From positions 6,261,001-6,325,000 of the forward strand of contig JAGTTD010000011.1 in assembly GCA_018398585.1 (NCBI GenBank): a DNA stretch of 64,000 nt. Direction: 5' to 3'. Below the pieces are notes generated by a model. That model saw nothing but the letters and a program-made list of their open reading frames with translations. It searched no databases and had not been told where the DNA came from. The translations under genes were made by a program, and so were the position numbers. Below, in pieces: positions 6,134 to 56,521 of this stretch. The DNA comes from Simmondsia chinensis (taxonomy: Eukaryota > Streptophyta > Magnoliopsida > Caryophyllales > Simmondsiaceae). Positions within the stretch are counted from its first letter, which is position 1. Each line of letters opens with the position of its first letter.

Positions 6134-8098
6134 GAGTTAAGTCCCATTTTGGTATCAAAGTGGCCAAAATTGGGCAAGTTAGTCACCTAAGTTAAATTTT
6201 GGAAAATTTAGCCATTCAATTACTATTAAAAATCTCATTTGGTCAACAAAGTGGTTTAAAATGGACAAGTTGGCAATCCATGTAATATTTTAAAAAATTT
6301 TATCACTCAACTTTACAAAAAACCAATTTTGGTCACTAAAGTGATTTAAAAATGATAAAAATCACCAAGTAAAAAATAACAAATTTGATTATACTTTTTT
6401 GCCTTATTTATTTCATTAGTCCTTATCTTTTTTTTTTTTTTCAAAACGATCCTTCATGTTTTATTTTGTAACCAAATTGGTTCTCATCTGTTTACTGGCA
6501 TTAGGTAATGTTAAGATTATGTCTCAAATTACTTGTTTTAAGTTTATGGGTTGCCATGAGGCCACCGATCGATCGTGAGGGAAGCCCGATCGATCGGGTG
6601 ATTTAAGTAAATTTTCGAGATTTTGGCCCATAAGAGGGCCGATCGATCGGCCCGGTTCCGATCAATCGGGACCTCCCAGACACGGGTCTATATATAGGGG
6701 CGTAGGGTTTACGTCATTGGGATCCAATTAAAGTGTGAGGCGCCGCCATTGAGAGAGAGAGGTGATTTTGTAATTCCTCCAATTCAGATATTCGAGTGCT
6801 ACGAGAGTTAAGAGAAAATGATTGTAATTCTTTCATAGATCTCATCAAGAGGAAGTGTCGTTATAATTCTTCCGTTCAGTATCAATAAAGAATCTCCATC
6901 TCCGCCCGTGGTTTTCTCCCCTCTCGATTGTAGAGGGGTTTCCACATGAATATTGTGTGTTCGTGTTTGTTCTTTCTTTCTCCATATATTTGTTTACTTC
7001 TCGTTTGTGTGAGTCATATTATTTGAATCGAATCAAGTGATTAGGGTTTACGCTTCCGCATCAAGATTTCCCTAACAAATTGATATCAAAGTATATCAGT
7101 TTGTTCCAGATTTATCCGCACAGGTAAAAATTAAATGATGATAAACTAATTTTGACATAAAATGAAATAAATAAAACAATAAACAAATAAAATAAGAATC
7201 AAGGAATGACAAACATAGTAAAACACGGTATAGGAATTAAATGGAGTTTAGTACGTTCGTGTATTATTCGGCTCTATACATAAAAAGTTTGGTCAAAAGT
7301 TTGTTGACTTATAAAAAGAATTATACATTATTACATTCATGACAATAACAATTCCTTCTAAAATATGGAGTGGAAATGAATGTAACTAATTTTCATTTTT
7401 ATTGATAGTGTTACATAGCAGTTGTAAGAAGCATAATACATAGTAAAAAGTAATGTCTAAGTCAATAGTTCAGGAGTCGAAGTTACAAATTTTGCAAATA
7501 TAGAATATAGATACTTAATCTAGGGTATTTTGCAACTTAGTTTCAATCGATCGTTTTCTTATTTGAGAAACATACGGATGTCTATTTAAACGAGTATTAT
7601 AAGGCTAACATTGAAAAACACGCACAGCCGCACATAACCCTAAATAACCTAAGCAACTGCTTAGGGATTGTGTTTTTAAATCTCAATGTTAATATTAATA
7701 AGTTCTATAATTAAAATTTTTATAATTTGCTATATTAATATCATATTGTTAAGACAAACTTTTTATACAAGAAGGACACCAATTGAAACATTCACTTAGA
7801 GTCCTGACAATGTCATGATAGGCCCTGAAAATACGTATTTTATCGTATTATTGATGATCATATGTAAATGCCTCTTTTAAACGGAAAGATACAAACACGT
7901 GTTTACTACAGAAATTATAAGTGTATTTTGCTAACTAGGATGCCATGTGCATTAAAAATGATAAAACAATGATGAGAACCAATTTAGTTATTAAATGAAT
8001 TTTTATAAGAAGTTGGGTGACTAAATTTTCCAAAAGTTGACTTCAGTGACTAATTTCTCTATTTTTGCCACTTGGGTGACCAAAATGAGACTTAACTC
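6134..8098. mobile_element. Non-autonomous Mutator-like element, long TIRs
   Basis: The ends are inverted copies: GAGTTAAGTCCCATTTTGGT at the left and the complement of GAGTTAAGTCTCATTTTGGT at the right. Similarity continues for over 150 bp, including GTTAGTCACC-type and GGAAAATTTAG-type segments. Flanks AAAGAGACCA (6124-6133) and AATAAGACCA (8099-8108) agree at 8 of 10 bases, fitting a 9-10 bp Mutator-type target duplication. No transposase is present. Another LTR-like insertion occupies 6509-7122. Superfamily is inferred from TIR and duplication length only. Confidence 0.7.
6509..7122 (+). mobile_element. Copia LTR with primer-binding site, nested
   Basis: An LTR-like unit starts TGTTAAGATTATG and ends CCCTAACA at 7077. 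It has a TATATATAGGGGCG promoter near 6691 and AATAAAG near 6885. ATTGATATCAAAG follows directly, a decayed match to the initiator-Met tRNA primer site TGGTATCAGAG, as in 5' LTRs of copia elements. GGTAA occurs just before (6504-6508) and again at 7123-7127, after only 45 bp of internal sequence. That may be a target duplication or chance. CGATCGATCG palindromes sit upstream of the TATA box at 6570-6660. Confidence 0.6.
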
Positions 8099-9962: not shown

Positions 9963-10234
9963 AAAAATAAACTAATTAGTTATTACTATAATATTATAAT
10001 TAATTTAAATATGGTAGTAATGACATACTAAATTAAAAATATATTATTCAAAAAAGAAATTAAGTGGTTAAAATTAAATAATATTAATTAAAAATTTATT
10101 GGTTCGAAAAATAAATAAAATGGTTAAAATAAAGAAATGTTAATTAATTTTATGTACCTAATACTATTTAAAAAATATTAAACATAAATATATAAAAATT
10201 TTACATAAATACAGAAATATAACAAGAATGTGTG

Positions 10235-11004
10235 TTAACACACAGACTACAAGTGTTGACACATTTTAATGTATTGAATACCACAGGCTATGTTCTCAAA
10301 ATCACCAACAACATACTCCAAATCACTGTTCAACAAAAACTAAGTGTCGACATATGTACGACGTGTGTCGACACAGTTAATGTGTTGAGCACATTTGGTG
10401 ATGTGTACATGGGTATGAACTATGTGTACATATATGACGACACACTTTTTCCGTATGTCGACACATGTATTTTGTTGTACATTGCTCTGCACTATTGTGA
10501 TGCGTACATGGATATGAATTTTGTGTACACATGTACACAACTTTGAGAACGTGATATATGTGTCGACACAAAAATAAATGGTTTCGAAACACAACCACTC
10601 TTAGTGTCTCGACACAAACATAAAAGGTGCCGTACACAAAATTCATATCCATGTACACATCTCCATATTGAAATAATAGTAATGGTTCACACAACACGTG
10701 TCGACACACGATATACGTGTGTCGACATATGTGTACACATAGTTCATACCCATGTACACATCACCATAATATATTCAAATTCAGTTTTGCATTAACACTT
10801 TACATGTGCCGACACACAGGACAAGGGTGTCGACACATGCATCAGGTACTTAGAATTACAATGAACGTACCGAAGTTCATTAACCATGTACTCAATATCA
10901 CACTAACAGAATGCATGTCGACATACATCGTCCGTGTGTCGACATAAATGTTATAGTGAGCTCAAATAGAGCTTGTGTGTCAACGCACGTATTGTAAGTA
11001 TTGA
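10235..11004. repeat. Left array: eight palindrome pairs, 21-bp pitch
   Basis: Core tetranucleotides (TCGA or its decay forms TTAA, TTGA, TCAA, ACGA, CCGA) in a TGTG-core-CACA context start at these pairs: 10235/10256, 10347/10368, 10437/10458, 10563/10584, 10701/10722, 10809/10830, 10918/10939, 10980/11001. Every pair has a start-to-start distance of exactly 21 bp, whereas the 11 bases between the ten-mers differ from pair to pair. Pairs recur every 60-140 bp. A second class with core GTAC is also paired at 21 bp: 10405/10426, 10504/10525, 10632/10653, 10733/10754. An extra single TCGA sits at 10609. The likeliest role is as binding sites for a dimeric protein. Confidence 0.9.
10391..10770. 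repeat. Large imperfect inverted repeat (hairpin)
   Basis: About 145 bp at 10391-10538 is the imperfect complement of 10625-10770. GGTGATGTGTACATGGGTAT at 10398 matches the complement of the sequence ending near 10766. ACATGGATATGAATTTTGTG at 10507 matches the complement of sequence starting near 10632. The loop is about 85 bp. Each arm contains TCGA- and GTAC-core palindrome pairs, so the array is itself arranged symmetrically. Confidence 0.8.
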
Positions 11005-11046
11005 CATGTGTAATGCAGTTAAGGCCCACCACCTCTTTCCTTAGTT

Positions 11047-11350
11047 GTTTTCTCTCTCTCTTTCTCTCCTTCGCTCGAACCCTAACTTCTTCAACACAAA
11101 ATCTTACCAAAGTTGTCAATTTCTCACAAAACTCGCTCAAAATTTTATTACAACTAAGGTTTCTATTTACAATTTAACCTCAATATGTTAAAATTCCCGT
11201 TATTATTCGTGTTCTTTCTCTCTTTCTCTCCTTCGTTCTAATCCTAACTTCTTCTTCAATATCTTACCAAGTCATCAATCTCTCACAAATCTCGTTCAAT
11301 TTTTTATTACAAATCAGGTTTCTATCGACTATATAACATTAAAAGGTTTG
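11047..11350. repeat. Two-copy tandem repeat, about 162 bp
   Basis: TTTCTCTCCTTCGCTCGAAC (about 11063) recurs as TTTCTCTCCTTCGTTCTAAT (about 11222). Downstream similarity includes CTAACTTCTTC, ATCTTACCAA, TCTCACAAA and TTTTATTACAA. CT-rich sequence followed by CCCTAACTTC looks like plant 5' leader sequence in the plus direction, but no plus-strand reading frame follows. It lies inside the FAR1-type MULE, left of the transposase stop. Confidence 0.7.
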
Positions 11351-11773
11351 ATTTTTTTTTAAGACATTATATGTATAATTCCCACAATGTATCAATATAG
11401 GGTGATGTCGCACATTCGGAATCAATTAGTATGAATGTACCTGTTATTTTTGGGTTGCTTCTACCATAATATTGATGGGGACCAATCAATATTATTTGTG
11501 TCCTATATGCTGCTTGACGAGTTGTATTGTTGGTACTAGATTTCGTTACATACACAACATTATATATTCATTAGTGTACAAAATAAGTAATTGTTGCTAT
11601 GATTCAAAACATACCTCATTGTCGTGTTGCGTTGTAAAGTGCGGCATGGGTTGATGTGCAGCTGTACTTTGGTTACCGGATAGATCACCACTACGTAATG
11701 TGAAGTAGCTAGCATTGATCGATAATGATCGGCTGTAGTCGTATGAGCTAGAGATTCCACCTACGTGTGTGGA

Positions 11774-13545
11774 CTATTGACTTGGGCTCAGGTTGGATGT
11801 GCCTTGCGCACAATTGTGCTTGAGATGGCCTTCTCCTCCGCATTGCTTGGAGACCTTTGGTTTTATTGGTCTTTTTCTACCTTTTGATTTAACGATTGGA
11901 GGGTCAGCCACCCCAACTGTAGGTCCATCAGCTTGACTATTACGTAGGTCAACCTTATTCCTCATCTTAGCGCTTAATTGTTCTATACATTCTTTTGTTT
12001 CCTTGAATGCATCGCCAGTTTGCAATGCAAGGAAACATAGTTGGTTGCTACTGGTGTTCAGTGCACTGTATCTCATCATGCACTGCATTTCGGTGGGCAC
12101 CGATACTCCAGAGCTGTTGCGATCGAAAGGCTTTGCATGTATTGTCCATCGCTGTACAATACAACTGAGAGGGATGGTTTCCATGCCCCAAAATTCCATC
12201 ACAGCAATCATGTGTCCACATGGGAAACCGACCGTCTCTAGCTTCTTGCAATTGCATTTCATTACTTGCGTGGGTGGACAGTGTAGAACTGTCGACCTAG
12301 AATCGCCTTTTGGATATTGTCTTAGGGTGTATGCCATGTATTCCCCAGCTTGGGAGGCATCTATCACCAAAAAAAGCGACTCGCACGACAGCTCTACCTG
12401 AAATATCTTGAAGGCAGCTCGTGTGTATAGTTGGCCGGCATGAGATTCGATGCTGATCAACGGAGCTCTGATAACTAGCCTGGAATATAGAGTATCAAAG
12501 TTGGCCTTGACCTCTTTTTCCCTATTATCTAGAAGCCAGTGATCAAAATACTGAACAAACTCAAACAACTTTAGCCTGCGTTGCATGTACTGTTTCAAAG
12601 TTGAGTTTGTACTTTCACATCGTTGTGTGCTTCTCATGCCAGCAAAGAAGTGACCCTCCAGATATGCATCTGTCCAATGAAATTTTTTTTCAAACAGTGA
12701 CTGAATCCATTCGTTCTCTGTTAGATCCAATGGCTCGACCAAATTTTTCCATGCATGCACAAACTCTTTAGTTGTACGATGCACAATTGAACACTGTATG
12801 AATTCCTTTGAAAAAGTTGACCTATATATGCTTGCGCATTTCTCTTCATGTTCCACAGACACAATCAATGCACGGTAGTAGGAAGGACTCGTGATATCGC
12901 ATTTACCATGCTCATGTCCCCGTCCGTGATGGTAGTCAGTGATTTTTTTCCATCCACTGCCTCCAGTAAAGCTTCCAGAACCCAGACATTTTCATCCCAG
13001 AGCAATGCACATCCGAAAAACAATTGTTTGTTGATGGTTGTTCACCCCAACTATAGTCACGAACGGCATCCTATAAGTGTTGACCTTGTACGTCGTGTCG
13101 AAGGCCATGGTGTCGGCTAAGTTACGGTAGTCTATCCGCGACTTCGAATCGACCCAAAATATGTTTCATAGTTGATTTTCCTCATTAACATCGTACTTTA
13201 CGAACATTAACGGATCTGTTGTTCTCTTTCCGAATAGATAACCCAGTACACCTTCCGCGTCACCCCTTCTGTTGCATCCCTACGCTCCTTGGCGATGAAA
13301 TTATGCATGTTCTTCTTTGTATGGCCGACGTTTTGAGTCCCCCCCTGATTGTTGCACCATTGTGCGATGAATCTGCGATTGTTGTATGCCTAATTTGTAC
13401 ATTGACATTACTTGGGTCTTATGCCCTTTGTTTAAGCCTCTATGTGATCATAAGTACGAAACCTGTGCGGCATCAACAAATGGATGGTTGTGGTTTGATA
13501 TGAACTCTTTCACACACACCATACGCTTCTCTGCTTATCATACTT
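11774..13545 (-). pseudogene. FAR1-like MULE transposase (frameshifted)
   Basis: Reading leftwards on the minus strand, the end of a FAR1 DNA-binding domain (HNHPFVDAA) lies near 13490. A linker with LGIQQSQIHRTMVQQSGG follows, then the MULE catalytic core with the first Asp in MAFDTTYKVN near 13100 and the second in ITDGDMSMVNA near 12925. The long open part (11774-12868, 364 codons) carries the C-terminal half and a SWIM zinc finger, CNCKKLETVGFPCGH near 12215-12255. It ends in a Lys-rich tail with a possible zinc knuckle (CGGEGHLKHNC). At least three frame changes separate N-terminal and C-terminal parts, one near 12850, so the protein is not made intact. The family is the Mutator branch from which FHY3/FAR1 factors derive. 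Confidence 0.85.
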
Positions 13546-13619
13546 GAACTTTATTGTGGCTTGGCAGGAACACCTTGTGAGTGGCTAGGGTTTGAGAGAG
13601 AGAGAGGAGCAAACATGTG

Positions 13620-13875
13620 TCGACACACATTGGAAGTGTATGAACATATGTTTTACAGTGGACAATATGTGTCAACACAGGAAATAATCTGTGTCAACAC
13701 CCTTAGCAAATGTGTTGACACATGAATGTTGTGTGTAGACACACATTACAGTTAGCATAAATTGTGTTGACAATCGTCTTGTTTGTGTCGACACGCATAT
13801 TACGTACTCAGGTGTGTACACAAAATTCATATCCACACGTACACAACAAAGAATGTGTCGACACACAACGAACGT
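13620..13875. repeat. Middle array of palindrome pairs
   Basis: Core starts at 13620/13641, 13694/13715, 13715/13736 and 13767/13788 are exactly 21 bp apart; 13672/13694 is 22. Many cores have decayed from TCGA to TCAA or TTGA, the products expected from cytosine methylation and deamination. The block is closely related to 15300-15480 on the other side of the inserted LTR, including the shared CACCCTTAGCAAATGT. A GTAC pair at 13816/13839 has a 23-bp pitch. Confidence 0.85.
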
Positions 13876-15293
13876 TGATGTGATTTTAAAGTGTGTTTTA
13901 AAACCGTTTACTCGCAAGCGTATGAGATCGTCGTAGCTTTGTCAGGTATACGGGTCGTATCCACAGGGAATCGTGTCAAGTTAGATTTACTGATTAATGA
14001 ACGATTTGAATTTTTTTGGTTTTTTTTGTTGTTCAATAAGTTGTTAGCTAAATTACTAAAACTGAATATAAAGTGAATGCGATAATTCAATTGAGGTTAG
14101 TTTAGGGAGTGAATTTGGGGCAGCTTAACACGTATACCGTCATTATATTCTACTGAGGACGATGATTCGAAGGACTTAGGCTACAAGCTCTAAGCCTGGG
14201 TTAATACATAAATTAGTGCTTAGGGTAATGAACTAGTCTAAAGGCATAACCTATCTTAGCATCCTCGATGTAATATAGGTTATCTCATTAGCACTACTTA
14301 ATTCTTTTGTTACTCTTAATTCAATATCAACTTATATAAAAGATTGGGTTCAAGGTTGGGTATAACCTCAACCCTAACCACGCGTGAATTCCTATTATGT
14401 TATGGTCTAGGCTACAATCACAAGACTAATCGCTGTAAAGTTGGAGACCTAGTCATGGCTACAAGCACACATACCAAAATATCCAACAATCATGAAAAAC
14501 TTCCCACAGGGGTGCGAATATAACATAACTAAATCAATCATCAAAAGCATAATATAAATCTGGGATACGGGCGGCTACCCGCCCTTCATCCCTAAACTAA
14601 AAAAGTTTACTCCTCCATGGGAGTCTTACACATCCTTAAATTTATATAAAAGAAGATACTGTGCATAAACTAAATAAAAGAGTAAACTCCCTCAATCTTC
14701 GTGTCGATGCTAATCCAAGCCTGAATTCTCCCAGTATTCCAACCTCTTGCGCTTCAGCTTTTGAGAACCTGTAGGTCTCGTAGCGGCTTCGGGTTTGAGA
14801 GAAAGGGGAGGACGTGCGACCAGAAAAAGCGTAACAAAGGCTGACTTCCCCTTCTCTATTTATAGGCGCAGAAGCAGTTAGGGTTCCGTACGGAACCATC
14901 CCGATCGATCGGGAATAATACCACGTAAAGCTCCCGATCGATTGGTGCTTTTGGCCGATCAATCTGCAGGCTCTCAGTTGGTTTCCCTAACCGGGAGCTA
15001 CTGATCCATCTGTTCTTTGAGCCCCCTTTTCTTGATTAAGCATCGAAGCGCTATGGAATGTACTCGGTTCACTAAATTATGATCCAAGAGGTCTTTCTTC
15101 TGCACAAATGGTTGGGTTTCTACAACCAGTCTTCAAAAGTGCCTCAATAATGCTTGATTTTGCTAGAATTCTTCTTTCGTCCACTTTTATGTGTTCCACA
15201 TGAAAATGTACCTAAATAACAACCGAACACACATGTAGAGGCCAAATATATGACAAAAATGGGAAATAAAATAGGTAAAAATCATGCATATCA
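13876..15293 (-). mobile_element. Athila-type solo LTR (minus)
   Basis: This 1418-bp block is an inverted relative of the LTRs of the Athila-like element at 35533-47396. It opens TGATGTGATTTTAAAGTG, followed by ACTCGCAAGCGTATGAGATC, and closes AATCATGCATATCA. Shared internal landmarks include GGGTATAACCTCAACC, CCGATCGATCGG-type palindromes at 14902-14965, and a minus-strand TATAAATAGAG box near 14860. There is no internal region. Flanks AACGT (13871-13875) and GAGGT (15294-15298) do not match, so a simple insertion duplication is absent. Confidence 0.8.
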
Positions 15294-15301
15294 GAGGTGT
15301 A

Positions 15302-15989
15302 TCGACATATGTTTTACAGGGCCAGTATGTGTCGACACAGGAAATATTATGTGTCGACACCCTTAGCAAATGTCTCGACACATGAATATTGGGTGTCAAC
15401 ATGCATGTCACATACTCATATGTGTACACAAAATTCATATCCATATATACAACAGAGAATGTGTCGACACGTCTATTTCCTGTGTCGACACATTCTTTTG
15501 TTCCTGCATACTGTGTCGACACATGAAATAGACGTGTCGACACATAATCTTGTACACAATCTGCGTACACACAGCTTATGTTCATGTACACATCACCATA
15601 ATGTACACAAATTCAGTTATTCATCAACAATTTACATGTGTCGACACACTATAAACGTGTGTCGACACGTAATCTATTTCATTGATTGTTGACTTGAGTA
15701 GGTTTTTGGTGATTTTGAGCACCTTTCTAGAGATTTTGAGTACATAATTGTTTGTCAACACATGGTTTTTTTTTTTTTTTTTTTCTGTTTCAACACACCG
15801 TTTCGTACCCATGTACATATATTCAGTTATTCATCAACACTTTACATATGGCGACATACTCTTAACATGTGCCGACACAAATTTTACAATGATTGCTAGT
15901 TGATTTGAGTAAGTTGTTAGTTATTTTGAGCACTTTTCTCGAGATTCTGAGTACGTATACGTGTGTCCACACATATAGCTTTGTGTTGA
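15302..15989. repeat. Right array of palindrome pairs
   Basis: Exact 21-bp core pairs start at 15354/15375, 15375/15396, 15464/15485, 15516/15537, 15641/15662 and 15851/15872. The pair 15332/15354 is 22 bp and 15966/15986 is 20. At 15755/15790 the spacing is 35, explained by a run of about 20 T inside the spacer. A GTAC-core pair at 15565/15586 is also 21 bp apart. The pair at 15464/15485 sits in a dyad with perfect 13-base arms (AATGTGTCGACAC). Two larger units around 15620-15760 and 15830-15960 are tandem relatives. Confidence 0.88.
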
Positions 15990-16002
15990 CACACATTCAC
16001 GT

Positions 16003-16296
16003 ACTCCATTTAAATTCATGTGCTAAAATTCACTACTCTTTTTAATTATAAAATTTGTGATACAGAGTACGTCTAAGTGCATTTGTTAATTTGAACCACT
16101 ACTCCATTTAAATTCATGTGCTCAAATTCACTACTCTTTTTAATTATAAAATTTGTGATACAGAGTGCGTCTGAGTACATTTGTTGATTTGAATCACTAC
16201 TCCATTTAAATTCATGTGCTCAAATTCACTATTCTTTTTAGTTGTAAAATTTGTGATACAGAGTACGTCTGAGTACATTTGTTAATTTGACCCACT
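16003..16296. repeat. Three-copy tandem repeat, 98-bp unit
   Basis: Units start at 16003, 16101 and 16199 with ACTCCATTTAAATTCATGTG and end with GTACATTTGTTAATTTGA-like sequence. Copies are nearly identical (about 95% by eye). The array directly follows the right palindrome array and may belong to the same element. Confidence 0.9.
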
Positions 16297-17269: not shown

Positions 17270-18359
17270 TAATACTAGTGGGATGGTAAAAATATGACTT
17301 AGACCATGCCTAATAGGCTTTAGGCTTAAAATTGGACTTCAATTGAGCTAAAATGAGCTAGACTAACAATGGGTATAAAACGCCGCTTAGTGTACAAAAG
17401 GGAATTAAAATGTAGTGTTTTACTGTACAAATATTTTGAATTTGGGTACCTTGGGACAATGACCAAATTGTCCTCATTAATATGTACTAATTACCCTTGA
17501 TATCGTGTACTACAGCTGCCCTTAGTGTACTACCTGCCCAGCTCATTGTACTACTCTTGCCCGAATTGTACAGCTGCTGCCCGTACTGTACTAGCTCCCC
17601 GTGAAGTACATTTCATCCTTATCTTCATCCTCTTACCCGTTGGATATTGCAAAGCTTCTTTGAGAAAGAAGCTTTCTCATGGTGAATCCAGGCCATTCGT
17701 TTGCCTGACGCGTGTCACCCGATAAGGGTCTCACCTTCTGCTTTCTGTGGGTAAGCATCATATGTTAGATCGATTTTAATTGACGAATGTGATGAGGTCT
17801 TGTGCAGGCACACGGATTATAGCTTGGGGTAGTATAAATGCCGATAGTTAGGGTTTTAGAGAAGTGGATTTCTGATCAATCGCATCTTCTCCTCTCTTCT
17901 GGTGTTCATCTTCCCTAAGGCTCCCAATGCAACCCTAACCCTAAATTTGAACCTTTAAGCCTTAATATGAAAGGTTACAACCTTATGAGCCTAATTCGCG
18001 GTGATTTCGTGCTTGTGGCGTACGATTCAAGCTGGTGGAGTGCGATTTGAACTTGTGGTGTTCAATCATTGGTAAGACTCAACTTCTGGAAGAGGTATAA
18101 CATTATCCTTGGGTTAGTTCTTTGGTTTCTAGCTTAGAATCCGAAGATCTTGTGTGTAATCTTGAGTCTAGGAGTTATTTGTTTTAGATTTGAGTTATTT
18201 GTGGTTGTAATCAGTCTTCGTTTGTATAAATCGGTTCTTCAGGATCAAGATTTGAGATCTCGAAGTCCGTATTCATTTTTGCTTTGTCCAACTTGTAATC
18301 GTTTATCTGAAGTCATATATTGTGAAAAGTCGTTAACTTGTGGTATCAGAGCCCCAACA
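17270..18359 (+). mobile_element. Copia 5' LTR
   Basis: Similarity to the 3' LTR begins at AAAAATATGACTTAGACCAT (17288 here, 22526 there) and runs to GAGCCCCAACA. The exact left end is uncertain because the first 20 bp differ. Contains several GTACTA-rich short repeats (17500-17600) and AGGGTTTTAGAGAAG near 17850 shared with the 3' copy. Confidence 0.85.
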
Positions 18360-22511: not shown

Positions 22512-23593
22512 TGTTATCAGTGATAAAAATATGACTTAGACCATGCCTAATAGGTTTGTAAATTAGGCTTAAAATTGGACTTAAATTGAGCTAGATTAAC
22601 AATGGAAATAAAATGCCTCACTTAATGTTCAAACGAGAATTAAAACGCAGTGTTTTACTATACATATATTTTGAATTTGGGTGCCCCTTGGGACAATGAC
22701 CAAATTGCCCCTATTAATATGTATTAACTACCCTTGATACCATGTACTACATCTGCCCTTAGTGTACTACCTGCCTAGCTCATAGTACTACTCTTGCCCG
22801 AATTGTAATGCTGCTACCCAAATTGTACTAGCTGCCCGTGAAGTACATTTCATCCTTATCTTCATCCTTTTACCCATTCGATATTGCAAAGCTTCTTTGA
22901 GAAGCTTTCTCATGGTGAATCCAGGTTGTTCGATCGTCTGAATGTGTCACCTGATGAGGGTCTCACTTTGTGCTTTTTGTGGGTAAGTATTGTCTGTAAG
23001 ATCGATTTTAATCGATGGTTGTGATGAGGTCTTGGGCAAGCACACGGATTGTAACTTGGGGTAGTATAAATGTCGATAGTTAGGGTTTTAGAGAAGTAGG
23101 TTTCTGATCAATCTCGTCTTCTCCCCACTCTCTTCTGGTGTTCATCTTCCTAAGGCTCCCAATGTAACCCTAATCCTAAATCTGAACCTCTAAGCCTTGA
23201 TATTCAAGGTTCCACCCTCGTGAGCCCGATTCAAGGTGATTTTTGCTTGTGGCGTACGATCCGAGCTGGTGGAGTGCGATTCGAACTTGTGGTGTTCGAT
23301 CCTCGGCAAGACTCAGCTTCTGGAAGAGGTATAATGTTATCTTTGGGTTAATTCTTTGGTCTCTAACTTAGAATCCAAAGATCTTGTGTGTAATCTTGAG
23401 TCCAAGAGTTATTTGCTCTAGATTTGAGTTATTTGTGGTTGTAATCAATCTTGGTTTGTATAAATCGGCTCTTCGGGGTTAAGATATGAGATTTTGGAGT
23501 TTGTATTTGTTTTTGCTTTGTGGGACTTGTAACCGTTTATCTGAAGTTATATATTGTGAAAACTCATTAACTCGTGGTATAAAAGCACCAACA
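22512..23593 (+). mobile_element. Copia 3' LTR
   Basis: Starts TGTTATCAGTGATAAAAATA after the purine-rich AAGGTGGAGTT and ends AAAGCACCAACA. Differences from the 5' LTR are spread along the length and include small indels near 22550, 22905 and 23120. Confidence 0.88.
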
Positions 23594-31236: not shown

Positions 31237-31912
31237 TGTTAGAACAAATTATTGAAATACTTGCAAAATACTTGCAAAATTTCCCAAAATACCGGGAACC
31301 GGGTAACCGAGAGATCTCAGGTGTTGAGGCGTGTAATCACTTTCCTTAAGGCTTATTTCGGTATACGAAATATCCTCGGGGATACAACAACAACCATATA
31401 TGAAGAAGAGAATATGTAAAGGGAGAGACATAGTGAGATGAATGAGAATAACCTTTTCAAAGACTTTCACAAATATGAATTTTTCAAGTGCTACTTGCAA
31501 TTGTATTTTATTTCTCAAAACATGAAAAGAGAATTCTCTTTTCTTCTCTTTTTAAATGAATCCCCCAAAGGGCTATTTATAGTTTTTCAAGTGTCTCTTC
31601 AAGAAGGGACACATCCCTTCATGAAGAGTCACTTTCTTTTTTAATATTACACAATTATTGCAAGTAAACACATTTCATATGTGTTCTCTTAAATAATAGG
31701 GGAAAATAATATGAGAAAATAAGGTTCAAAAGACGTCCCAAACTTATCAAAATGTTACTGTAATTCTATAAGATTTGTGTGTCAACATACAAATGACATT
31801 GTTGGATTGTGTATCGACACACGGGCCCTGTGTGTCGACACACATCCCATACAAGTTCAAAACACTTAACCAAGTATAGGACAATCACATACATTTTGAA
31901 AATACACCAACA
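31237..31912 (-). mobile_element. LTR (minus) carrying one palindrome pair
   Basis: A 676-bp unit has TG...CA ends (TGTTAGAACAAATT to ACACCAACA). It is followed at the right by TTCCCCCACCATTTTC, the complement of a polypurine tract, so it reads as the 3' LTR of a minus-strand element. A minus-strand ACTATAAATAGCCC promoter lies near 31570-31580. The U3 side holds a TCGA-core palindrome pair at 31814/31835 with exactly 21-bp pitch, the same arrangement as in the MULE arrays. The 5' LTR is not found. Confidence 0.65.
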
Positions 31913-35532: not shown

Positions 35533-36921
35533 TGATGTGCCTCATTTCTACATACTCTATTTCTTATTCCTGGGACATATTCGGCTTTTACATGTGAGGT
35601 TTGTTGTAATCGAGGCATGTTTATGATTGGAATGCATTGGAGCAAATAAAGGTTGAAAAGTGGCAAAATCAGGCATTGCATAGGCACATTTGAAGACTAT
35701 CCCGAGAAACCCGACCACGTGTGCAAAAGGACTCATCGGGTCACAATTCGGCAAATCAAATACATCTCATAGCATTTCAGGGTTCAATCGACCTATTGGC
35801 ATGAAAAACCAATTGATTAGTTGCCCATAGTAGGACGGATCCTACAATGGGCCAGCCGATCGATCGGCCAACAGTGTCGATCAATCGGCAGCTTGTAGTA
35901 GGCTTGCCGATCGATCGGCATAGTACCTGCAGAGCGACCCCTATGTCACGCCACAAGTATAAATAGAGGGGAGACCTTAATTTTGGATCCTTCACACGTC
36001 TCCTCTAATCCTCTCCCTTTCGAAGCCGCTACGAGATTCAAAGGAATTCTCAAACGCCAAAGCGTAGATGACCAGAGTGCTGGGAGGATCAAAGCTCGAA
36101 TCAACATCAACGCAAATTGAGGGAGTCTCTGTTTTCTGAGTTTGACTTCATTATTCCTTTCTTTTCATTTAATGATGTGTAAAACTCCCAAAGGAGATGC
36201 TTTTAATTTAGGGGTGAAGGACAGGTAGCCGTCCATATCCCAAATTTGTATTTTACTTTGACGATGATTCAATTATGTTATATTCGCACCCCTGTGAAAA
36301 TTATTCATGATTGTTTAGTGTTTCTTTGTGTATGCTTGTAGCCATGTCTAGATCTCCAACTTTTTAGCGATTCGTCTTGTGCTTGTAGCCTAGATTTTAA
36401 CATAATATATTTTCACGTGTGGTCCCGGTTAAGGTTGCAACCAACCTTGAATACAATCTCTTATACAAGTTAATATTGAATTAGGAGTGAAAAAGGAATT
36501 AAGTAGTGGTAATGAGATAACCTATGCTACACTTAGGATGATAATATAGGTTATGCCTTTAGACTAGTTTATTATCCCAAGCCTTTATTTAATTATCAAC
36601 CCAGGCTTAGAGCTTGTAGCCTAAGCCCTTTAAATCATTGTCCTAATTAAAATGTAATGACGAGATACGAGTTAAGCTATCCTGAATTCATTCCCTAAAC
36701 TAACCTCAATCAAATTAACATTCTTTTTACTGTTTTAATTGCCTTAGCTTAGTTAATCACTTGACTTGACCAACGAAAAACCCAATCAACTCATTCATTA
36801 ATAATAGAATTCAACTTAACACCAATTCCTCGGGAATATGACACCCGTATACCCGACTACGCTACAACGAACTCGTACGCTTACGAGTACGAGGTTTAAA
36901 ACACACTTTTAAAACACATCA
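35533..36921 (+). mobile_element. Athila 5' LTR
   Basis: Starts TGATGTGCCTCATTTCTAC and ends TTTTAAAACACATCA. CCGATCGATCGGC palindromes at 35859-35919 stand upstream of GTATAAATAGAGGGG at 35957. GGGTAGCCGTCCATATCCCA-like sequence follows at 36230. The 3' copy at 45972 shares all of these landmarks. Confidence 0.9.
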
Positions 36922-42693: not shown

Positions 42694-43444
42694 AGGTTTT
42701 TTTGTTTGAGTATGGGGCGTACAGTTGCACCCCTGATCGACCGACTAAGAGGCTCAATCGATCGGGGGCGCCTATTGGAGCGCGCTAGGCACTCCAACGC
42801 CTAATCGATTGGGGTGCTCACTGCAACCCCTTTCAAAAATCTAAACCCCCTCACCCCTCCCCGCCCCCACCCTCCCAATTCTCTCTCTTCACCCCACTTT
42901 CTTCCTCTTTCCCAATCCCTAACCCTAGCTCGCCTAATCTTCCCCACGACCCACAGCCGGCCACCCCACCACCGCCGGTGTCTCCCTTTATTTTAAATTT
43001 TCTTTTTGCCTTGTTCATCTTTAGAGAGAGCATGTTTTGGGATTTTTCATGTATTTTTGACTTGCTATGTTCGAATATTCATAATTCAAGTCCTATTTAT
43101 GAACAAAGTTAGGGTTTTCTTGAACTTATCATTTTTGTATATATTTGTTCAAGAACCATGTTCAAATAGTGGTTCAAGTAACCGGATCTAGCGCTTTCAT
43201 GTCTTTATTTGATGGATTAATAGTTGTTTGGGGTTGTTGTGTGAGCAAATTAGGAATTTGTTACCATTTGCTTATGTCTGGGTTTTTCCTTCAATTTTCA
43301 CCAACGTTGTTCATGCTTTAGGTTCAATCGGCTGATTTTTTTTTTTTACTTTCTTTGGGTTTTTAGTCTATCTTATTAAATTTACATTTCTTTTACAACA
43401 TCAGTTGTGTTTAGTTTTACTTCAATTGTTTCTATTTTATTTAT

Positions 43445-45971: not shown

Positions 45972-47396
45972 TGATGTGCCTCATTTTTACATACTTTATT
46001 TCTCATTCCTACGATATATTCGGCTTTTATATGTGTGTTTTGATGTAATCTAGGCACATTTATGCTTGGAATGCATCGGAGCAAACAAAGGTTGAAAAGT
46101 GGCAAAATTAGGGATTGCTTCGGCATATTTGAAGACTATACATGTGCAAAAGAAGGACTCATCGGGTCACAATTCGGTAAACCAAATACATCTTGTAGCA
46201 TTTTGGGGTTCAATTGACCAATCGACACAGAAAATCGATCGATTAATAGCCCACAGTAGGACGGATTCCACATTGGGCTAGCCGATCGATTGGCTAACAG
46301 TGTCGATCAACCGGCAGCTTGTAGTAAGCTAGCTAATCGATCAACACAGTACCTGCAGTGTGACCCCCAAGTCACGCCGCAAGTATAAATGAAGAGGGGG
46401 AGACCTTAATTTCGGATTTTTTTCGCACGTCTCCTCTCCTCATCTCCTTCCCAAAGCCACTATGAGATTCAAGGAATTCTCAAACGCCGAAGCGCGGGTG
46501 GTCGAAATGCTGGGAGGATCAAAGGTCATATCAATGTCAATGCAAATTGAGGGAGTCTCTGTTTCCCTAGTTTTACTTCATTATTCCTTTCTTTCGATTT
46601 AATGATGTGTAAAACTCCTATGGAGAAGTAAACGCTTTTATTTTAGGGGTAAAGGACGGGTAGCCGTCCATATCCCAGATTTGTATTTTACTTTGACAAT
46701 GGTTTAGTTATGTTATATTCGCACCCCTGTGGGGAATTATTCAAGATAGTTTGGTATTTCTTTGTGTGTGCTTGTAGCCATGTCTAGATCTCCAACTCTT
46801 TAGCAATTCGTTTTGTGCTTGTAGCCTAGACTTTAACATAACATATTTCGTTTTGTGCTTGTAGCTTAGATCTTAACATAACATATTTTCACGCGTGGTC
46901 AGGGTTGAGGTTGTAACCAACCTTGAACACAACCCTTTATACAAGTTAATATTAAATTAGGAGTGAAAAAGGAATAAAGTAGTGCTAATGATGACCTACG
47001 CTACACTTAGAGTGATAAAATAGTTTATGCCTCTAGACTAGTTCATTATCCCAAGCCCTAATTTAATTATTAACCCAGACTTAAAGTTTGTAGCCTAAGC
47101 CCTTTAAATCATTATTCTAAGTAAAATATAATGACGAGATACGAGTTAAGCTATTCTGAATACATTCCCTAAACTAACATCAATCAAATTGACATCCTTT
47201 TCATTGTTTTAATTGTCTTAGCTTAGTTAATTACTTGACTTGACCAACAAAAAACCCAATCAATTCACTTATTAATAACTGAATTTGACTTAACATGGAT
47301 TCCTCGTGGATATCACACTCGTATACCCAACTAAGCTACGACGAACTCGTATGCTTGCGAGTACGCGGTTTTACACCACACTTTTAAAACACATCA
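45972..47396 (+). mobile_element. Athila 3' LTR
   Basis: Starts TGATGTGCCTCATTTTTAC and ends TTTTAAAACACATCA. Compared with the 5' LTR it has lost several CGATCGATCG palindromes by point changes (46238-46345). It also has a short tandem duplication near 46805-46870 (TTCGTTTTGTGCTTGTAGC). Confidence 0.9.
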
Positions 47397-48087: not shown

Positions 48088-50153
48088 GGGAAATCGTACG
48101 GTTTGGACCCCCCACCCCAACCTTATTCTTTTTTAGACCCCATTAACAATAAATAGACTTTTTTGGACAAAAATGCCCTCCCACCTCACCCCCCCCCCCC
48201 ATCCGTCCTTTCTCTCTCCTCATTTGATGCAAGGCAGACAAAATGACACTTTTTTGACTTTTTCACTCTTCCTTTTCTTCATTTTTTTTTCCTTTCGAAT
48301 TTTTTTGTCAAAAAAAAAATATTATTTCCAAATTTGCCCTTTCTTCTTCTTCTTCCCTCCCAGACCTTGTTTAGGTGTGATTCAAGTAATTAGTGGTGTC
48401 TGAAATAAAATCATACACTGTGTATGATGCATTATAATACTGTAAAGTGAACTTATTCAGGTGTATTTCAAGAAATTAGTGGTAAATGACTTATCATACA
48501 CAATGTATGATTGGTTATAATGGCATAAAATCAACTTTTGCTGATTTTTTCAAGTAATTAGGGGTACAGTGGTCTGAAATCGAATCATACACTGAGTATG
48601 ATGTGTTTCAATGGTGTAAAATGACCTTATTCAGGTATACTTCAAGTAATTAGTGGTAAATAACTTGTCATACACAATGTATGATAGGTTTTAATGGCAT
48701 AAAATCAACTTTTACTGGTTTTATCAAGTAATTACTGTTACAGTGAGTTGAAATCGAATCATATAATGGGTATGATGCGTTAAAATGGTTTAATACGAAC
48801 CTTTTCAGGTATGTTTCAAGTAATTAGTGGTAAATGACCTATCATACACAAATTATTATAGGTTTTAATGGCATGAAATCAACTTTTGCAGTTTTTAAAT
48901 GAGGAGAGAGAAAGGGGACGGGTTGGGGGGTTGAATGGGAGGGCCTTTTGAAGGAAAATCGTACCGATTATTTTATTGAAATTGTATATTTTTTTTCTAA
49001 ATACACATCCCAAAAATACACAAATATATGTATGTTGATTTTACACAAATATAACCCATCATACACCGTGTATGAAGTGCATCATACGCCAATAAAATTT
49101 GAAATACACGTATATAAGCTGATTTCAGACCACTGCAACAGTAATTAATTAAAAAAAACAGCAAAAGTTGATTTTGTACCACTAAAACCTATAATAATTT
49201 GTGTATGATAAGTCATTTACCACTAATTACTTGAAACTTGCTTACATAAGTTCATTTTACACCATTAAAACGCATCATACCCAGTGTATGATTCGATTTC
49301 AGACCACTGCAACAGTAATTACATAAAAAAAATTGCAAAAGTTGATTTCATGCCATTAAAACCTATAATAATTTGTGTATGATAGGTCATTTACCACTAA
49401 TTACTTGAAACATACCTGAAAAGGTTCATATTAAGCCATTTTAACGCATCATACCCATTGTATGATTCGATTTCAGCCCACTGTAACAGTAATTACTTGA
49501 AAAAATCAGTAAAAGTTGATTTTATGCCATTAAAACCTATCATACATTGTGTATGACAAGTTATTTACCACTAATTACTTGAAGTATACCTGAATAAGGT
49601 CATTTTACACCATTGAAACGCATCATACCCAGTGTATGATTCGATTTCAGACCACTGTACCCTAATTACTTGAAAAAACCAGCAAAAGTTGATTTTATGC
49701 CATTATAACCTATCATACATTGTGTATGATAAGTCATTTACCACTAATTTCTTGAAATACACCTGAATAAGTTCACTTTACAGCATTATAATGCATCATA
49801 CACAGTGTATGATTTTATTTCAGACACCACTAATTACTTGAAACACACCTAAACAAGGTCTGGGAGGGAAGAAGAAGAAAGGGCAAATTTGGAAATAATA
49901 TTTTTTTTTTTGACAAAAAAATTCGAAAGGAAAAAAAAATGAAGAAAAGAAAGAGTGAAGAAGTCAAAAAAGTGTCCTTTTACCTGCCTTGTATTAAATG
50001 AGGAGAGAGAAAGGGAGAGAGAGAGAGAGGACGGATGGGGGGGGGGGGGGGGTGAGGTGGGAGGGCATTTTTGTCAAAAAAAGTCTATTTATGGTTAATG
50101 GGGTCTAAAAAAGAATAAGATTGGGGTGGGAGGTCCAAACTGTACGATTTCCC
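48088..50153. mobile_element. Foldback Mutator-like element
   Basis: GGGAAATCGTACGGTTTGGACC at the left end is mirrored by GGTCCAAACTGTACGATTTCCC at the right. The arms are inverted copies over some 800 bp. Flanks TTATTTTTT (48079-48087) and TTATTCTTT (50154-50162) match at 8 of 9 bases, the Mutator duplication length. Arms are built of 80-95-bp units, each with a palindrome such as TCATACACTGTGTATGA or CATACACAATGTATG. There is no transposase. A second terminus-like segment (AAATGAGGAGAGAGAAAGG to GGAAAATCGTAC) at 48897-48965 lies internally, so the element may be composite. Confidence 0.85.
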
Positions 50154-50162
50154 TTATTCTTT

Positions 50163-50951
50163 AGAGTCGGTTCCCTAAATAATGCTCAAAAATAAAAAAA
50201 TAATGCTGAAAAAAAAAATTTCCAAATCTACTGTTGAACCGAGTTTACTAAACGCGGCTTTGATAAACCGCGTCTAAAAATATCGTTTAATATTAGCATA
50301 AACCGCGTCATAAAGACGCGGTTTTGTTCTGTTATAACCGTGTCTTTATGACCCGGTTTACTAGGTTTATCTAATTCACGCGTGTTCTCTCCGCTGCTTT
50401 CACCATCTCTCTGCCTCTTTCTCGTTAACCCACCACCAGTCACGTCGTTCGCCTCCTCCTTTCTTTTGCTTACACACTGGAGATCTTTCAAGTACTATTA
50501 TTGGAGTTATTTGACCTCCACTTATGATGTTCGAGCTTCATTAAGAGAGACATGGGATCAATATGATAATCATCACAAATTGCGGCATAATAAAAACTAT
50601 AAACGAACAAAAAATTGAAGAATTACGGCACAATGGTAAGTATAAGTGAAAAAAAGGGCTTTTGGATTACTGACGTTAAACCACGTTTTGTAACTGCGGT
50701 TTAGGAATAAACCGCGTTTAGTAGACGCGGTTCAGTTATAAACCGCGTTTATTAAACGCGATTTATATTAAGTTAAACCGCGTTTAGTAAACGCGGTTTA
50801 CTCTGATATAACCCACATATTTTTATCCTGTTTTATTAAAATTTAAACGCGTTTAATAAACGCGGTTCAACAGTAGATTGGAAAATATTTTTTTTCAGTA
50901 TTATTTTTTTAATTTTTTTTATTTTTTAGCATTATTTTGAAAACAGACTCT
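50163..50951. mobile_element. MITE with ACCGCGTTTA-type palindromes
   Basis: The ends are inverted: AGAGTCGGTTCCCTAAATAATGC at the left, and AGAGTCTGTTTTCAAAATAATGC on the other strand at the right. TCTACTGTTGAACCG is shared further in. Each side has several copies of ACCGCGTTTAGTAAACGCGG or close variants. If the terminal A is excluded the flanks are TA/TA, but no longer duplication is seen, so superfamily is open. The centre (50380-50640) holds CT-rich sequence with an open frame that may be captured genic DNA. Confidence 0.7.
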
Positions 50952-53995: not shown

Positions 53996-54292
53996 GCCTT
54001 AAAGGGAAATTTTGCTTTTCCAAAAAATAGAAAGCGTCGGTCAGATCTTCATCGGATTTTTAAAATGGAGAACATGGGAGAAGAAATCTAAGTGTTCTCC
54101 TCCATCTTAGCTGCGTCATGTTATGCATAGCTAGTATTTTGATTCTCTTTCTTAATCACTGTATTTTGATTGTTTTGTAAGTCCTGTATTTTGCGAACTA
54201 TATCAACCTCCTTTTAATGGGTACTTAAATATCCTTTCTGCTGCGTTATTCAATGTTTCCTTCTTGCTGAAAGATTTGTTCTTTGCTTCCAG

Positions 54293-56521
54293 ATGAATGA
54301 TAGTTCTCCAAACAGCAAGGACCCGCTCAAGGATGGAGGTGGTAACTGCGAGCATAATGGCCAGCAGCTGTTCAAAATTGATAGCAACGACCTTTGCATT
54401 GAAGTCGATGGACATGATCACAACATCCAGCCGGGTTTTGACATTGTAAGCAATGTTAGTGAGTCGTATTTGGAGATTGAATGCGATGAACACGAGAACA
54501 GTGAGCATATGCTCAGTGCTGAAGGAGAGGACCATGATCATAACCGTGGCTTCCTGCAGTTGCTTGACATCGGAGACAGTAACCAGGAAGACATGGAAGG
54601 GAATTCGGTCGTGGACGATCAACAAACGGTCTCCCGAGACAAGTATTACGCTCCACCTGTGGTTGGGATGGAATTTGAATCGTATGATGATGCTTATAAT
54701 TACTATAATTGCTATGCAAAAGAATTGGGTTTTGCTACAAGGGTGAAGTCTTCATGGACTAAACGCAACAGCAAAGAAAAACGGGGTGCGGTTCTCTGTT
54801 GCAACTGCGAGGGTTTCAAGACACCTAAGGAAGTATGTAGTAGAAGGAAAGAAACGCGAACCGGGTGTCTGGCAATGATTAGGTTAAGATTAGTGGAATC
54901 TAACAGATGGAGAGTGGACGAAGTGAAGCTTGAACACAATCACTCATTTGATCCCGAAAGAGCACAGAACTCCAAGTCACACAAGAAGATGCAACCGGGG
55001 GATAAGAGGAAATTCGAGCCAGCACTGGATGTCGAAGTACGAACAATCAAATTGTATAGAGCCCCCACCACTGATGCGGCTAGCTCTTCTAGCCATGTAC
55101 CTAGCAAACAACAGAAGGGAAACCGCGTCGAATCTGGTTACTTGAAGCTTAAAGACGGCGAAGCACAGGCAATTCAAAACTACTTCTGTCAGGCCCAGCT
55201 GATGAATCCAAACTTCTTTTATGTTATGGATTTGAACGATGAAGGTCGGTTGAAAAACGTGTTCTGGATCGAGCCAAGGGCAAGAGCTGCATATGCTCAC
55301 TTCGGTGATGTTGTAGCACTTGACACGACTTGCATTTCAAATAAGTCTCAGATCCCACTAGGGGCTTTTGTTGGAATAAATCACCATGGACAATCCATTT
55401 TGCTAGGTTGTGGTTTACTTGCAGATGAAACTGTGGAAACCTATGTCTGGTTGTTCAGAGCATGGCTCACATGTATGCTGGGGCGCCCCCCTCAAATTAT
55501 TGTTACAGATCGATGCAGCGCTATACAAACTGCAATTTCTGACGTGTTTCCCCGGGCCCACCACCATCTTTTTTTGCCATTTATCATACAAAGCATTGTG
55601 GACAACTTGCGGCAGATTTCTGATTCTGATGCATTCCATTCAGCCTTGGATAGTACAGTATATGATCCTCTGAAAGTCGAAGAATTCGAAATTGCTTGGG
55701 AGAATATGATACAGCATTTTGGACTCAAAGATCACAGATGGCTTCGTACTCTATATGAGGAGAGAGAAAGATGGGCGCATGTGTATTTGAAGGACACATT
55801 TCTCGCTGGACTTTTCGCTCGTCGAACAGGTGAGCTCTTGATTCCAGTTTTCCAGGGTTATGTTCATGACCAAACTTCTTTGAAAGAATTTTTTGATATA
55901 TATGATTCATTCATCCAAATGAAGCAGCAAGACGAATCCCTCTACGATTCTGAATCCATAGAATCAATCCCGTTACTAACAAGCTGCTACTATGAACTTC
56001 AGCTGTCAAAACTATACACTAAACCAATTTTTGACAAGTTCTCCATGGAAGTCGAATCGATGTCTTGTTTAAACATCATTGAAGTTAACACCACCGAACC
56101 AGTCATCACTTATATCGTGAAAGAACATGACAACACACTCGTAACAAAGTTCAAGACCTTCGAGGTGATGTATGACAAGGCAGCCGTGGAAGTACGCTGC
56201 ATCTGTGGGTGCTTTTACCTAAATGGTTATCTATGTCGACACGTTCTATGTGTCCTCAGCTACAATGGCTTTGAGGAGATTCCGAGTGCGTATGTGCTGG
56301 CACGATGGAGGAAAGACCATAAGCGCATGTATGTGACCAGTGTTGGGTCCGAAAATGTGGATATCGCGAACCCGGTTCAGTTGTATGAGCATTTATATAG
56401 AAAAGCAATGCAGGTGGTTGAAGAAGGGATGGTGTCACAGGATCATTATATGGTGGCTTGGCAAGCATTCAAGGAGACTTTGAATAAGGTGCGTCTAACT
56501 GTAGAAAAGCATGTGGAATGA
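54293..56521 (+). CDS. FRS6: FAR1-RELATED SEQUENCE protein (FRS6/FRS8-like)
   Basis: An intact 742-codon single reading frame encodes a FHY3/FAR1-family nuclear protein derived from a Mutator transposase. An acidic, His-rich N-terminus (1-120) precedes a FAR1 DNA-binding domain at about 125-222 (GMEFESYDDAYNYYN, CCNCEGFK, LEHNHSFDPE). The transposase-like domain at about 300-435 retains Asp344 in LDTTC and Asp406 in VTDRC. The SWIM zinc finger has Cys636, Cys638, Cys648 and His650. Wording around SSWTKRNSKEKRGAVLCCNC is as I remember for Arabidopsis FRS6 and FRS8, which are reported to affect flowering under light control; the choice between the two is uncertain. TTCCAG just before the ATG suggests a 5' UTR intron. 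No stop or frameshift, unlike the related MULE transposase at 11774-13545. Confidence 0.92.
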   Translation: MNDSSPNSKDPLKDGGGNCEHNGQQLFKIDSNDLCIEVDGHDHNIQPGFDIVSNVSESYLEIECDEHENSEHMLSAEGEDHDHNRGFLQLLDIGDSNQEDMEGNSVVDDQQTVSRDKYYAPPVVGMEFESYDDAYNYYNCYAKELGFATRVKSSWTKRNSKEKRGAVLCCNCEGFKTPKEVCSRRKETRTGCLAMIRLRLVESNRWRVDEVKLEHNHSFDPERAQNSKSHKKMQPGDKRKFEPALDVEVRTIKLYRAPTTDAASSSSHVPSKQQKGNRVESGYLKLKDGEAQAIQNYFCQAQLMNPNFFYVMDLNDEGRLKNVFWIEPRARAAYAHFGDVVALDTTCISNKSQIPLGAFVGINHHGQSILLGCGLLADETVETYVWLFRAWLTCMLGRPPQIIVTDRCSAIQTAISDVFPRAHHHLFLPFIIQSIVDNLRQISDSDAFHSALDSTVYDPLKVEEFEIAWENMIQHFGLKDHRWLRTLYEERERWAHVYLKDTFLAGLFARRTGELLIPVFQGYVHDQTSLKEFFDIYDSFIQMKQQDESLYDSESIESIPLLTSCYYELQLSKLYTKPIFDKFSMEVESMSCLNIIEVNTTEPVITYIVKEHDNTLVTKFKTFEVMYDKAAVEVRCICGCFYLNGYLCRHVLCVLSYNGFEEIPSAYVLARWRKDHKRMYVTSVGSENVDIANPVQLYEHLYRKAMQVVEEGMVSQDHYMVAWQAFKETLNKVRLTVEKHVE

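Follow-up and report, generated by a model that had tools for sequence, protein, structure and literature searches.

Paired TCGA-centred palindromes at a 21-bp pitch in a decayed Mutator-like element of Simmondsia chinensis, possibly protein-bound cis-regulatory boxes

The window analysed here, a stretch of 64,000 bases of Simmondsia chinensis (contig JAGTTD010000011.1, positions 6,261,001 to 6,325,000; GC 38%), is plant DNA crowded with transposable elements, among them a decayed Mutator-like element (MULE) spanning approximately 10226-16000 in window coordinates, which are used throughout. The piece at 12995-13165 matched the MULE transposase domain (PF10551, 32.9 bits against a cut-off of 27.6), and to either side of the broken transposase gene lie arrays of a 12-bp TCGA-centred palindrome, TGTGTCGACACA, many copies of which are paired exactly 21 bp apart. 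Inverted homology was found between 10226-10435 and 15796-16000, and the outer parts of the element's ends are AT-rich, with an alignment score of 84 against 76 for the highest of 60 shuffles. A CT-rich tract adjoins the arrays on each side; both tracts carry AACCCTA words and look like inward-pointing 5' untranslated regions (UTRs) with the arrays directly outside them. The main parts, including one long terminal repeat (LTR) of another element, are as follows, with the strand given where one was assigned.

10226..11012: left subterminal array, with 8 TGTGTCGACACA pairs at 21 bp and with GTAC-type and TTTTGAGYAC-type words (site scan and lag test)
11041..11092, plus strand: CT-rich tract resembling a 5' UTR, with AACCCTAA, immediately inward of the left array; putative inward promoter, from sequence
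11774..13534, minus strand: FAR1-type MULE transposase, decayed and in pieces (profile matches and reading by eye)
13582..13612, minus strand: CT-rich tract resembling a 5' UTR, with AAACCCTAG, immediately inward of the right array; putative inward promoter
13610..13875: right array, first part, interrupted by the solo LTR
13876..15293, minus strand: solo LTR (TG..CA) whose insertion split a pair; ~35533-36921 and 45972-47396 are related
15294..16000: right array, second part

Sites matching TGTGTCGACACA at 10 or more of 12 positions were called strong, and two sites were called a pair where one matched at 10 or more positions and the other at 7 or more. The three arrays (10226-11012, 13610-13875 and 15294-16000) contained 36 strong sites and the remainder of the 64 kb only 6, where chance would give 1.65 across the entire window (20 Markov sequences, none with more than 4). 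The first-pass annotation of this DNA had listed 18 palindrome pairs at exactly 21 bp in the MULE, and 18 were recovered by the fixed rule. Their first sites are the start coordinates of the pairs and triples below, the two triples also contributing 13711 and 15371, whose first site doubles as the second site of the preceding pair; in three pairs (10976, 13616 and 15371) the second member matched at only 7-8 of 12 positions. The two halves of a split pair, discussed below, are included.

10231..10263: pair, 21 bp; 15962/15982, its homologue in inverted orientation, is spaced 20 bp
10343..10375: pair, 21 bp; falls opposite 15637 and 15847 when the inverted regions are aligned
10433..10465: pair, 21 bp; duplicated in inverted orientation at 10697
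10559..10591: pair, 21 bp; second member GGTTTCGAAACA
10697..10729: pair, 21 bp
10805..10837: pair, 21 bp; 15637 and 15847 are related pairs
10914..10946: pair, 21 bp
10976..11008: pair, 21 bp; second member weak, 7/12
13616..13648: pair, 21 bp; second member weak, 8/12; paralogue of the split pair 13854/15298
13690..13743: triple, 21 + 21 bp (13690, 13711, 13732)
13763..13795: pair, 21 bp
13854..13865: split pair, first member; partner 15298, at 21 bp in the presumed empty site
15298..15309: split pair, second member
15350..15403: triple, 21 + 21 bp (15350, 15371 and a weak 15392)
15460..15492: pair, 21 bp
15512..15544: pair, 21 bp; duplicates 15460 in inverted orientation and starts 31 bp from 15481
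15637..15669: pair, 21 bp
15847..15879: pair, 21 bp

Under the same rule the runner-up distances in the range 12-60 were 19 bp (12 cases) and then 23, 50 and 52 bp (7 each). A partner at 21 bp was present for 27 of the 36 strong sites and missing for 9, namely 13668 and 15328 (22 bp), 15962 and 15982 (20 bp), 15751 and 15786 (35 bp, with a T-run), the two halves of the split pair, and 10605. The mean match to the consensus around the 36 sites, taken at all offsets of 12-70 on either side, was best at +21 (5.88/12) and -21 (5.79/12), against 2.98 +- 0.54 (standard deviation) at all other offsets. A motif-free test, which counts identical bases at lag k, likewise had its peak at lag 21, with z 7.6 for the left array and z 6.6 for the middle and right arrays together, but showed none there in the transposase gene (z 0.1) or the solo LTR (z 0.9). 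As an observation apart, the central TCGA was kept in 24 of 43 sites within 10226-16000 and had become TTGA, TCAA or TTAA in 12, as expected if the CpGs of the palindromes were methylated in the germ line and then decayed.

It had also been claimed that the spacer is free in sequence and that the pairs are not tandem duplications, and both claims held. In 19 pairs (the 18 of the MULE and one at 31810, described below) the 9-nt spacer was identical to the next 9 nt at 31% and to the previous 9 nt at 26% of positions, where chance gives 26% (171 positions), and a 21-bp tandem repeat is thus not an obvious source of the pairs; no trace of a 21-bp duplication was found within them, and this origin was rejected. 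Many pairs are nevertheless copies of one another (10433/10697, inverted; 10805 with 15637 and 15847; 13690/15350; 13711/15371; 15460/15512, inverted), and by eye the MULE pairs fall into approximately 12 groups that are perhaps not independent. A 21-bp pair occurs in 11 of the groups, one group has a spacing of 22 bp, another has 20- and 35-bp copies as well, and spacers compared between groups are at chance identity. A probability of 5e-19 for the pitch, calculated on a coarser grouping with 13 of 15 independent lineages, was dropped since several of those lineages are related.

The split pair adds a nineteenth case within the MULE. The stretch 13876-15293 is a solo LTR on the minus strand that starts with TG and ends with CA; its family is found also at ~35533-36921 and 45972-47396, two copies with a reverse-transcriptase piece between them (PF00078, 30.2 bits against a cut-off of 29.6). 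The presumed 5-bp target duplication, AACGT/GAGGT, is alike at 3 of 5 positions. Taking out the solo LTR together with one presumed target copy brings 13854 and 15298 to exactly 21 bp apart. In this restored form the region aligns opposite the pair 13616/13637, being the second unit of an approximately 238-bp tandem duplication. Read from the same alignment, a 52-bp deletion in the second unit joins one palindrome to another with the 21 bp kept.

Words other than the TCGA palindromes share the pitch. When all sites matching at 9 or more of 12 positions were masked together with their partners and 126 lags were ranked, the top lags were 21, 31 and 42 (0.360, 0.356 and 0.348; mean 0.284), approximately two, three and four helix turns. 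The remaining 21-bp signal came from GTAC-type words and from triples of asymmetric words:

10404..10430: GTAC-type palindrome pair, 21 bp; four others start at 10503, 10631, 10732 and 15564 (related copies with similar spacers)
10271..10326: three asymmetric GTTCTCAAAATCAC-type words at a 21-bp pitch; inverted homologues at 15692-15747 and 15899-15954

GTAC occurs 26 times in the arrays, with the distance 21 seen 7 times, whereas outside the arrays the distance 21 was seen 3 times and 20 was seen 5 times. With GTAC masked as well, the left array lost 21 from its six best lags while the right array kept it as the best. The presence of non-TCGA words at this pitch is suggestive only, because the lineages are few and copied and the lag of 42 is partly twice 21.

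An unbiased scan of the window for like 10-bp palindromes within 60 bp of one another gave 33 pairs, the arrays accounting for 21 of them (10 spaced 21 bp) and the DNA outside the MULE for 12 (three at exactly 21 bp); 40 simulated Markov-2 sequences of window length gave 0.225 pairs on average and none at 21. Among the 16 palindromic 4-bp centres, only TCGA was paired at 21 bp outside the MULE (2 of 5 pairs), the 15 other centres giving six pairs there together and none at that distance. The three outside pairs at 21 bp sit in presumed LTRs, namely LTR-C, LTR-A and LTR-B2.

31237..31912, minus strand: LTR-C, with TG..CA ends, a purine tract and a TATA box by eye
31810..31842: TGTGTCGACACA-word pair at 21 bp (31810/31831) in the presumed U3 of LTR-C; a third site at 31778 is 32 bp away
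6565..6669: CCGATCGATCGG boxes at 6565, 6586, 6639 and 6658 (21, 53 and 19 bp) in LTR-A (~6509-7077, limits by eye), approximately 20 bp upstream of a TATA box
35856..35918: CCGATCGATCGG boxes at 35856, 35877 and 35907 (21 and 30 bp) upstream of the TATA box of LTR-B2

Further CCGATCGATCGG boxes were found in LTR-B3 at 46282 and 46303 (distances 21 and 30) and in the solo LTR at 14955 and 14934 (21 and 33). The boxes of LTR-A and LTR-B end approximately 20-40 bp upstream of TATA, the position that Sirevirus-type boxes occupy, and the LTR-C pair lies approximately 230 bp upstream of it. The LTR-B call rests on three related copies, those of LTR-A and LTR-C on ends of the TG..CA type, on sequence resembling a purine tract or a primer site, and on TATA boxes identified by eye. 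Weaker CGATCGAT-type matches (9-10/12) at 42733, 42754 and 42801 (21 and 47 bp) may be related; the stretch 42733-42812 adjoins a CT-rich tract with AACCCTAG, and its spacings follow the order of the weak upstream boxes of LTR-B2 (21, 47).

Tentatively, and as the most plausible of the explanations weighed here, we read the arrays as cis-regulatory boxes of the decayed MULE that are bound by protein dimers, more likely those of a host factor than of the transposase. The boxes would occupy both subterminal regions, which are partly inverted, upstream of the presumed inward-facing promoters, giving the arrays a promoter role; each 12-bp palindrome would be bound by a single protein dimer, with cooperative binding of two dimers placed on one face of the helix. 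The binder would be a host DNA-binding factor, whether an activator or a silencing or anti-silencing factor, which several element families may use or suffer from. The fixed two-turn pitch with a free spacer gives a geometric hint that proteins, rather than hairpins, read the boxes, and the occurrence of the pitch in a DNA transposon as well as in LTRs suggests a common host factor. This reading is supported by the exact pitch of the 18 pairs, the motif-free lag peaks, the lags of 21, 31 and 42 that remain after masking, the spacers near chance identity, the pairs at 21 bp in the LTRs, the restriction of that distance to TCGA among the 16 centres, and the likeness to the palindromic boxes of Sirevirus LTRs. 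Some neighbours in the MULE stand 31 bp apart. In viral contigs holding TGTCGACA pairs, among the matches listed, at least 10 of 134 distances of 12-42 bp equalled 21, and no sharp peak stood there, 24 and 30 bp being equally common. Six candidate mis-annotated proteins that might have revealed arrays in other genomes yielded none at E 10. A wider proposal, which we think possible but somewhat unlikely, is that TCGA palindromes with family-specific arms and two-turn pairs make up a promoter module shared generally by unrelated transposable elements of plants, whether MULEs or LTR elements; a third box would sometimes follow three turns on, paired dimers of a host protein family would activate or silence these elements, and the arms would diverge as in an arms race.

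Several results weigh against the host-factor reading. Insertions and deletions (indels) were not significantly rarer inside pairs (4 of 283 columns, against 22 of 647 outside; P 0.13), and substitution rates were alike inside and outside the pair spans (17% and 19%), so the recent copies are without clear constraint, as expected of a dead element. Double changes compensating within the dyad numbered 4 against 2.6 expected from shuffles (P 0.25), and compensatory dyad change was rejected as not above shuffle. At 10.5 bp the 22 distances between pairs showed no significant phasing (P 0.12), lower P values being obtained for periods of 9 and 12 bp, and long-range helical phasing between pairs was likewise rejected, the 11 between-pair distances of 65 bp or less showing weak phasing at 10.5 bp (P 0.04). 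The arms differ between families (TGTG, CCGA), and a single protein would have to tolerate both. The LTR comparison was made post hoc, after the MULE had been seen, and its generality is supported by no more than three LTR families, all from this window; in the U3 regions of the LTRs taken by themselves the motif-free lag test was weak (z at 21 of 0.7 for LTR-A, 1.8-1.9 for LTR-B and 2.3 for LTR-C), and a fourth family, LTR-D (17284-18359 and 22521-23593), had no such pair in the unbiased scan and z values of 0.8 and -0.2 for its U3 at lag 21. The last such point concerns the protein of the MULE itself. Its gene is broken into pieces, the longest listed being an open reading frame of 405 amino acids at 11774-12991 with a SWIM domain below the cut-off, whose sole match was a Coffea FRS5-like protein (32% identity over 88%). 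The FAR1 Pfam profile matched neither this frame nor any of 12 further minus-strand pieces at 12995-13941 (one of no relevance counted in); two additional pieces examined belong to the solo LTR. However, the piece at 13448-13534, directly upstream of a conserved SHRGLN piece, resembles by eye the end of a FAR1 domain (VKEFISNHNHPF), and for this reason the MULE probably once encoded a FAR1 domain, most of which is now gone, which keeps the transposase alive as a candidate binder.

The first-pass annotation had seen in the pairs the binding sites of that transposase, and this is a rival explanation, in which the arrays are sites for the MULE's own FAR1-type transposase and paired dimers bring the ends together. 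The arrays do lie in both subterminal, partly inverted regions, MULE terminal inverted repeats (TIRs) are known to hold transposase sites, as for MURA (PMC3310237), and the piece at 13448-13534 shares 6 of 12 residues with the FAR1 domain of a frame at 54218-56521 (E 0.2). In addition, FRS12, an Arabidopsis factor of the FAR1 family, has TGTGTG among its three in-vivo motifs (PMC5437275), close to the half-site TGTGTC. Yet no FAR1 profile match was found in the pieces tested, the MULE ends could not be defined (no convincing 8-10 bp target-site duplication was found at the element's outer parts), and the TGTGTCGACACA word and pitch recur in LTR-C and the pitch with CCGATCGATCGG in LTR-A and LTR-B, unrelated LTRs in which a MULE transposase would not explain it. 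Thus the exact two-turn pitch and free spacer of that proposal stood, while its attribution to the transposase was weakened by the LTRs, and we consider it unlikely. Both readings would be reconciled if the binder were a host protein of the FAR1 family, a candidate for which the six bases are thin evidence. The frame at 54218-56521, 40 kb from the decayed MULE, is a long one with FAR1 and MULE domains that resembles FAR1-RELATED SEQUENCE 8 and is a possible host gene; its named relatives are all eudicots among the 120 listed of 1010 matches, and a TATGTCGACACG match in its SWIM-coding part is probably there by chance.

Two further explanations were weighed. If a single ancestral pair had multiplied through inversions, tandem duplications and exchanges among palindromes while its spacers drifted, the spacing would be inherited without selection, its length kept as indels are rarer than substitutions. 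The indel to substitution ratio in local LTR copies is 0.06-0.18, and so few length changes are expected; many pairs are indeed related copies, the 52-bp deletion between palindromes kept the 21 bp, and the non-significant depletion of indels inside pairs agrees with it. Nevertheless, the presence of a 21-bp pair in 11 of the approximately 12 groups, with between-group spacers at chance identity, tells against such inheritance, and a single ancestral pair cannot explain other words and unrelated LTR families at 21 bp, which leaves this explanation quite improbable. The most doubtful of the explanations is that the palindromes act as hairpins, in RNA or in a single strand, of stem 12 and loop 9 that feed small-RNA silencing, as has been proposed for the Sirevirus palindromes of maize, the spacer being the loop length. 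It still stands because the arrays fold strongly: the right array folded beyond 20 dinucleotide shuffles (z -9.0), and against 12 mononucleotide shuffles each the left, middle and right arrays gave z values of -21.6, -9.1 and -9.6, compared to -1.8 for a stretch of the gene. Sirevirus palindromes of maize are, moreover, linked to small-RNA hotspots (PMC5311732, PMC10760457). A hairpin does not, however, require an exact 9-nt loop, non-palindromic words have the 21-bp pitch too, and pair members were no more complementary to each other than across pairs (185 of 228 positions, 19 pairs, P 0.19), so that covariation within pairs was rejected as not above shuffle. A 21-nt small-RNA register was also rejected, because distances of 31 between neighbours and of 52 among all pairs do not divide by 21. 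The left array contains an inverted repeat of itself at 10396-10766 (71% over 393 columns), and this must contribute to how strongly the whole array folds as RNA.

Elsewhere in the window, a 98-bp unit is repeated three times in tandem at 16002-16295 (93-94% alike), directly outside the right array, and holds words resembling those of the asymmetric triples. Dense tandem and inverted repeats, up to 94% alike, occupy 48088-50324.

Among known systems, the subterminal TNPA arrays of En/Spm, the precedent named in the first-pass annotation, are likewise repeated short motifs near both ends, but consist of direct and inverted copies of a 12-mer at variable spacing and belong to a different transposase class. 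Mutator/MuDR TIRs are long inverted terminal regions with protein sites and two inward promoters, to which the partly inverted regions and putative promoters of the present element may correspond, but MURA binds a motif of approximately 32 bp and no palindrome array is described in the parts of the source consulted (PMC3310237). The VANDAL elements, also MULEs, carry dense arrays of short motifs in their non-coding parts, which are bound by VANC anti-silencing proteins and evolve by repeat gain and loss, whereas the VANC21 motif YAGTATTAY is non-palindromic and in one orientation, with no paired pitch described in the parts consulted (PMC5735166, PMC10398659). In the parts of the open-access literature examined, we found no report of a fixed 21-bp pitch for such boxes and no named binder of the palindromic boxes of plant retrotransposons, and the literature matches listed included no work on arrays of TGTGTCGACACA-type words.

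Closest of all, and closer than En/Spm, are the repeated motif (RM) boxes of Sirevirus LTRs, family-specific palindromes clustered upstream of TATA (PMC2829016), which like the present boxes are dyad-symmetric and numerous, and which gather in the cis-regulatory part of the element, as the boxes of the MULE would. Two of the 13 consensus boxes, those of Tnd-1 (ACAATCGATTGT) and Vitis (CGGTCGACCG), are TCGA-centred (PMC2829016). The CGG-CCG core of RM boxes is absent from TGTGTCGACACA, as it is from Tnd-1 (PMC2829016), and in the CCGATCGATCGG boxes of LTR-A and LTR-B, CGG and CCG occur only in the other order and at the ends, unlike the RM core. The hosts differ also, being a MULE (by PF10551) and a Ty3-type LTR element (LTR-B, by the flanked PF00078 piece) rather than the Copia-type Sireviruses, and the boxes here are paired at a fixed 21 bp; the RM box was called Sirevirus-specific (PMC2829016), but the maize Sirevirus box has been described in Helitrons as well (PMC10760457). 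From this likeness we take the arrays for the equivalent of those boxes in a MULE, and by analogy they are most likely a paired, fixed-pitch version of them. Palindromic boxes in plant retrotransposon promoters have been known since 2010; the paired two-turn pitch is not described in the literature examined, and it gives a cheap and specific handle for finding the binding protein.

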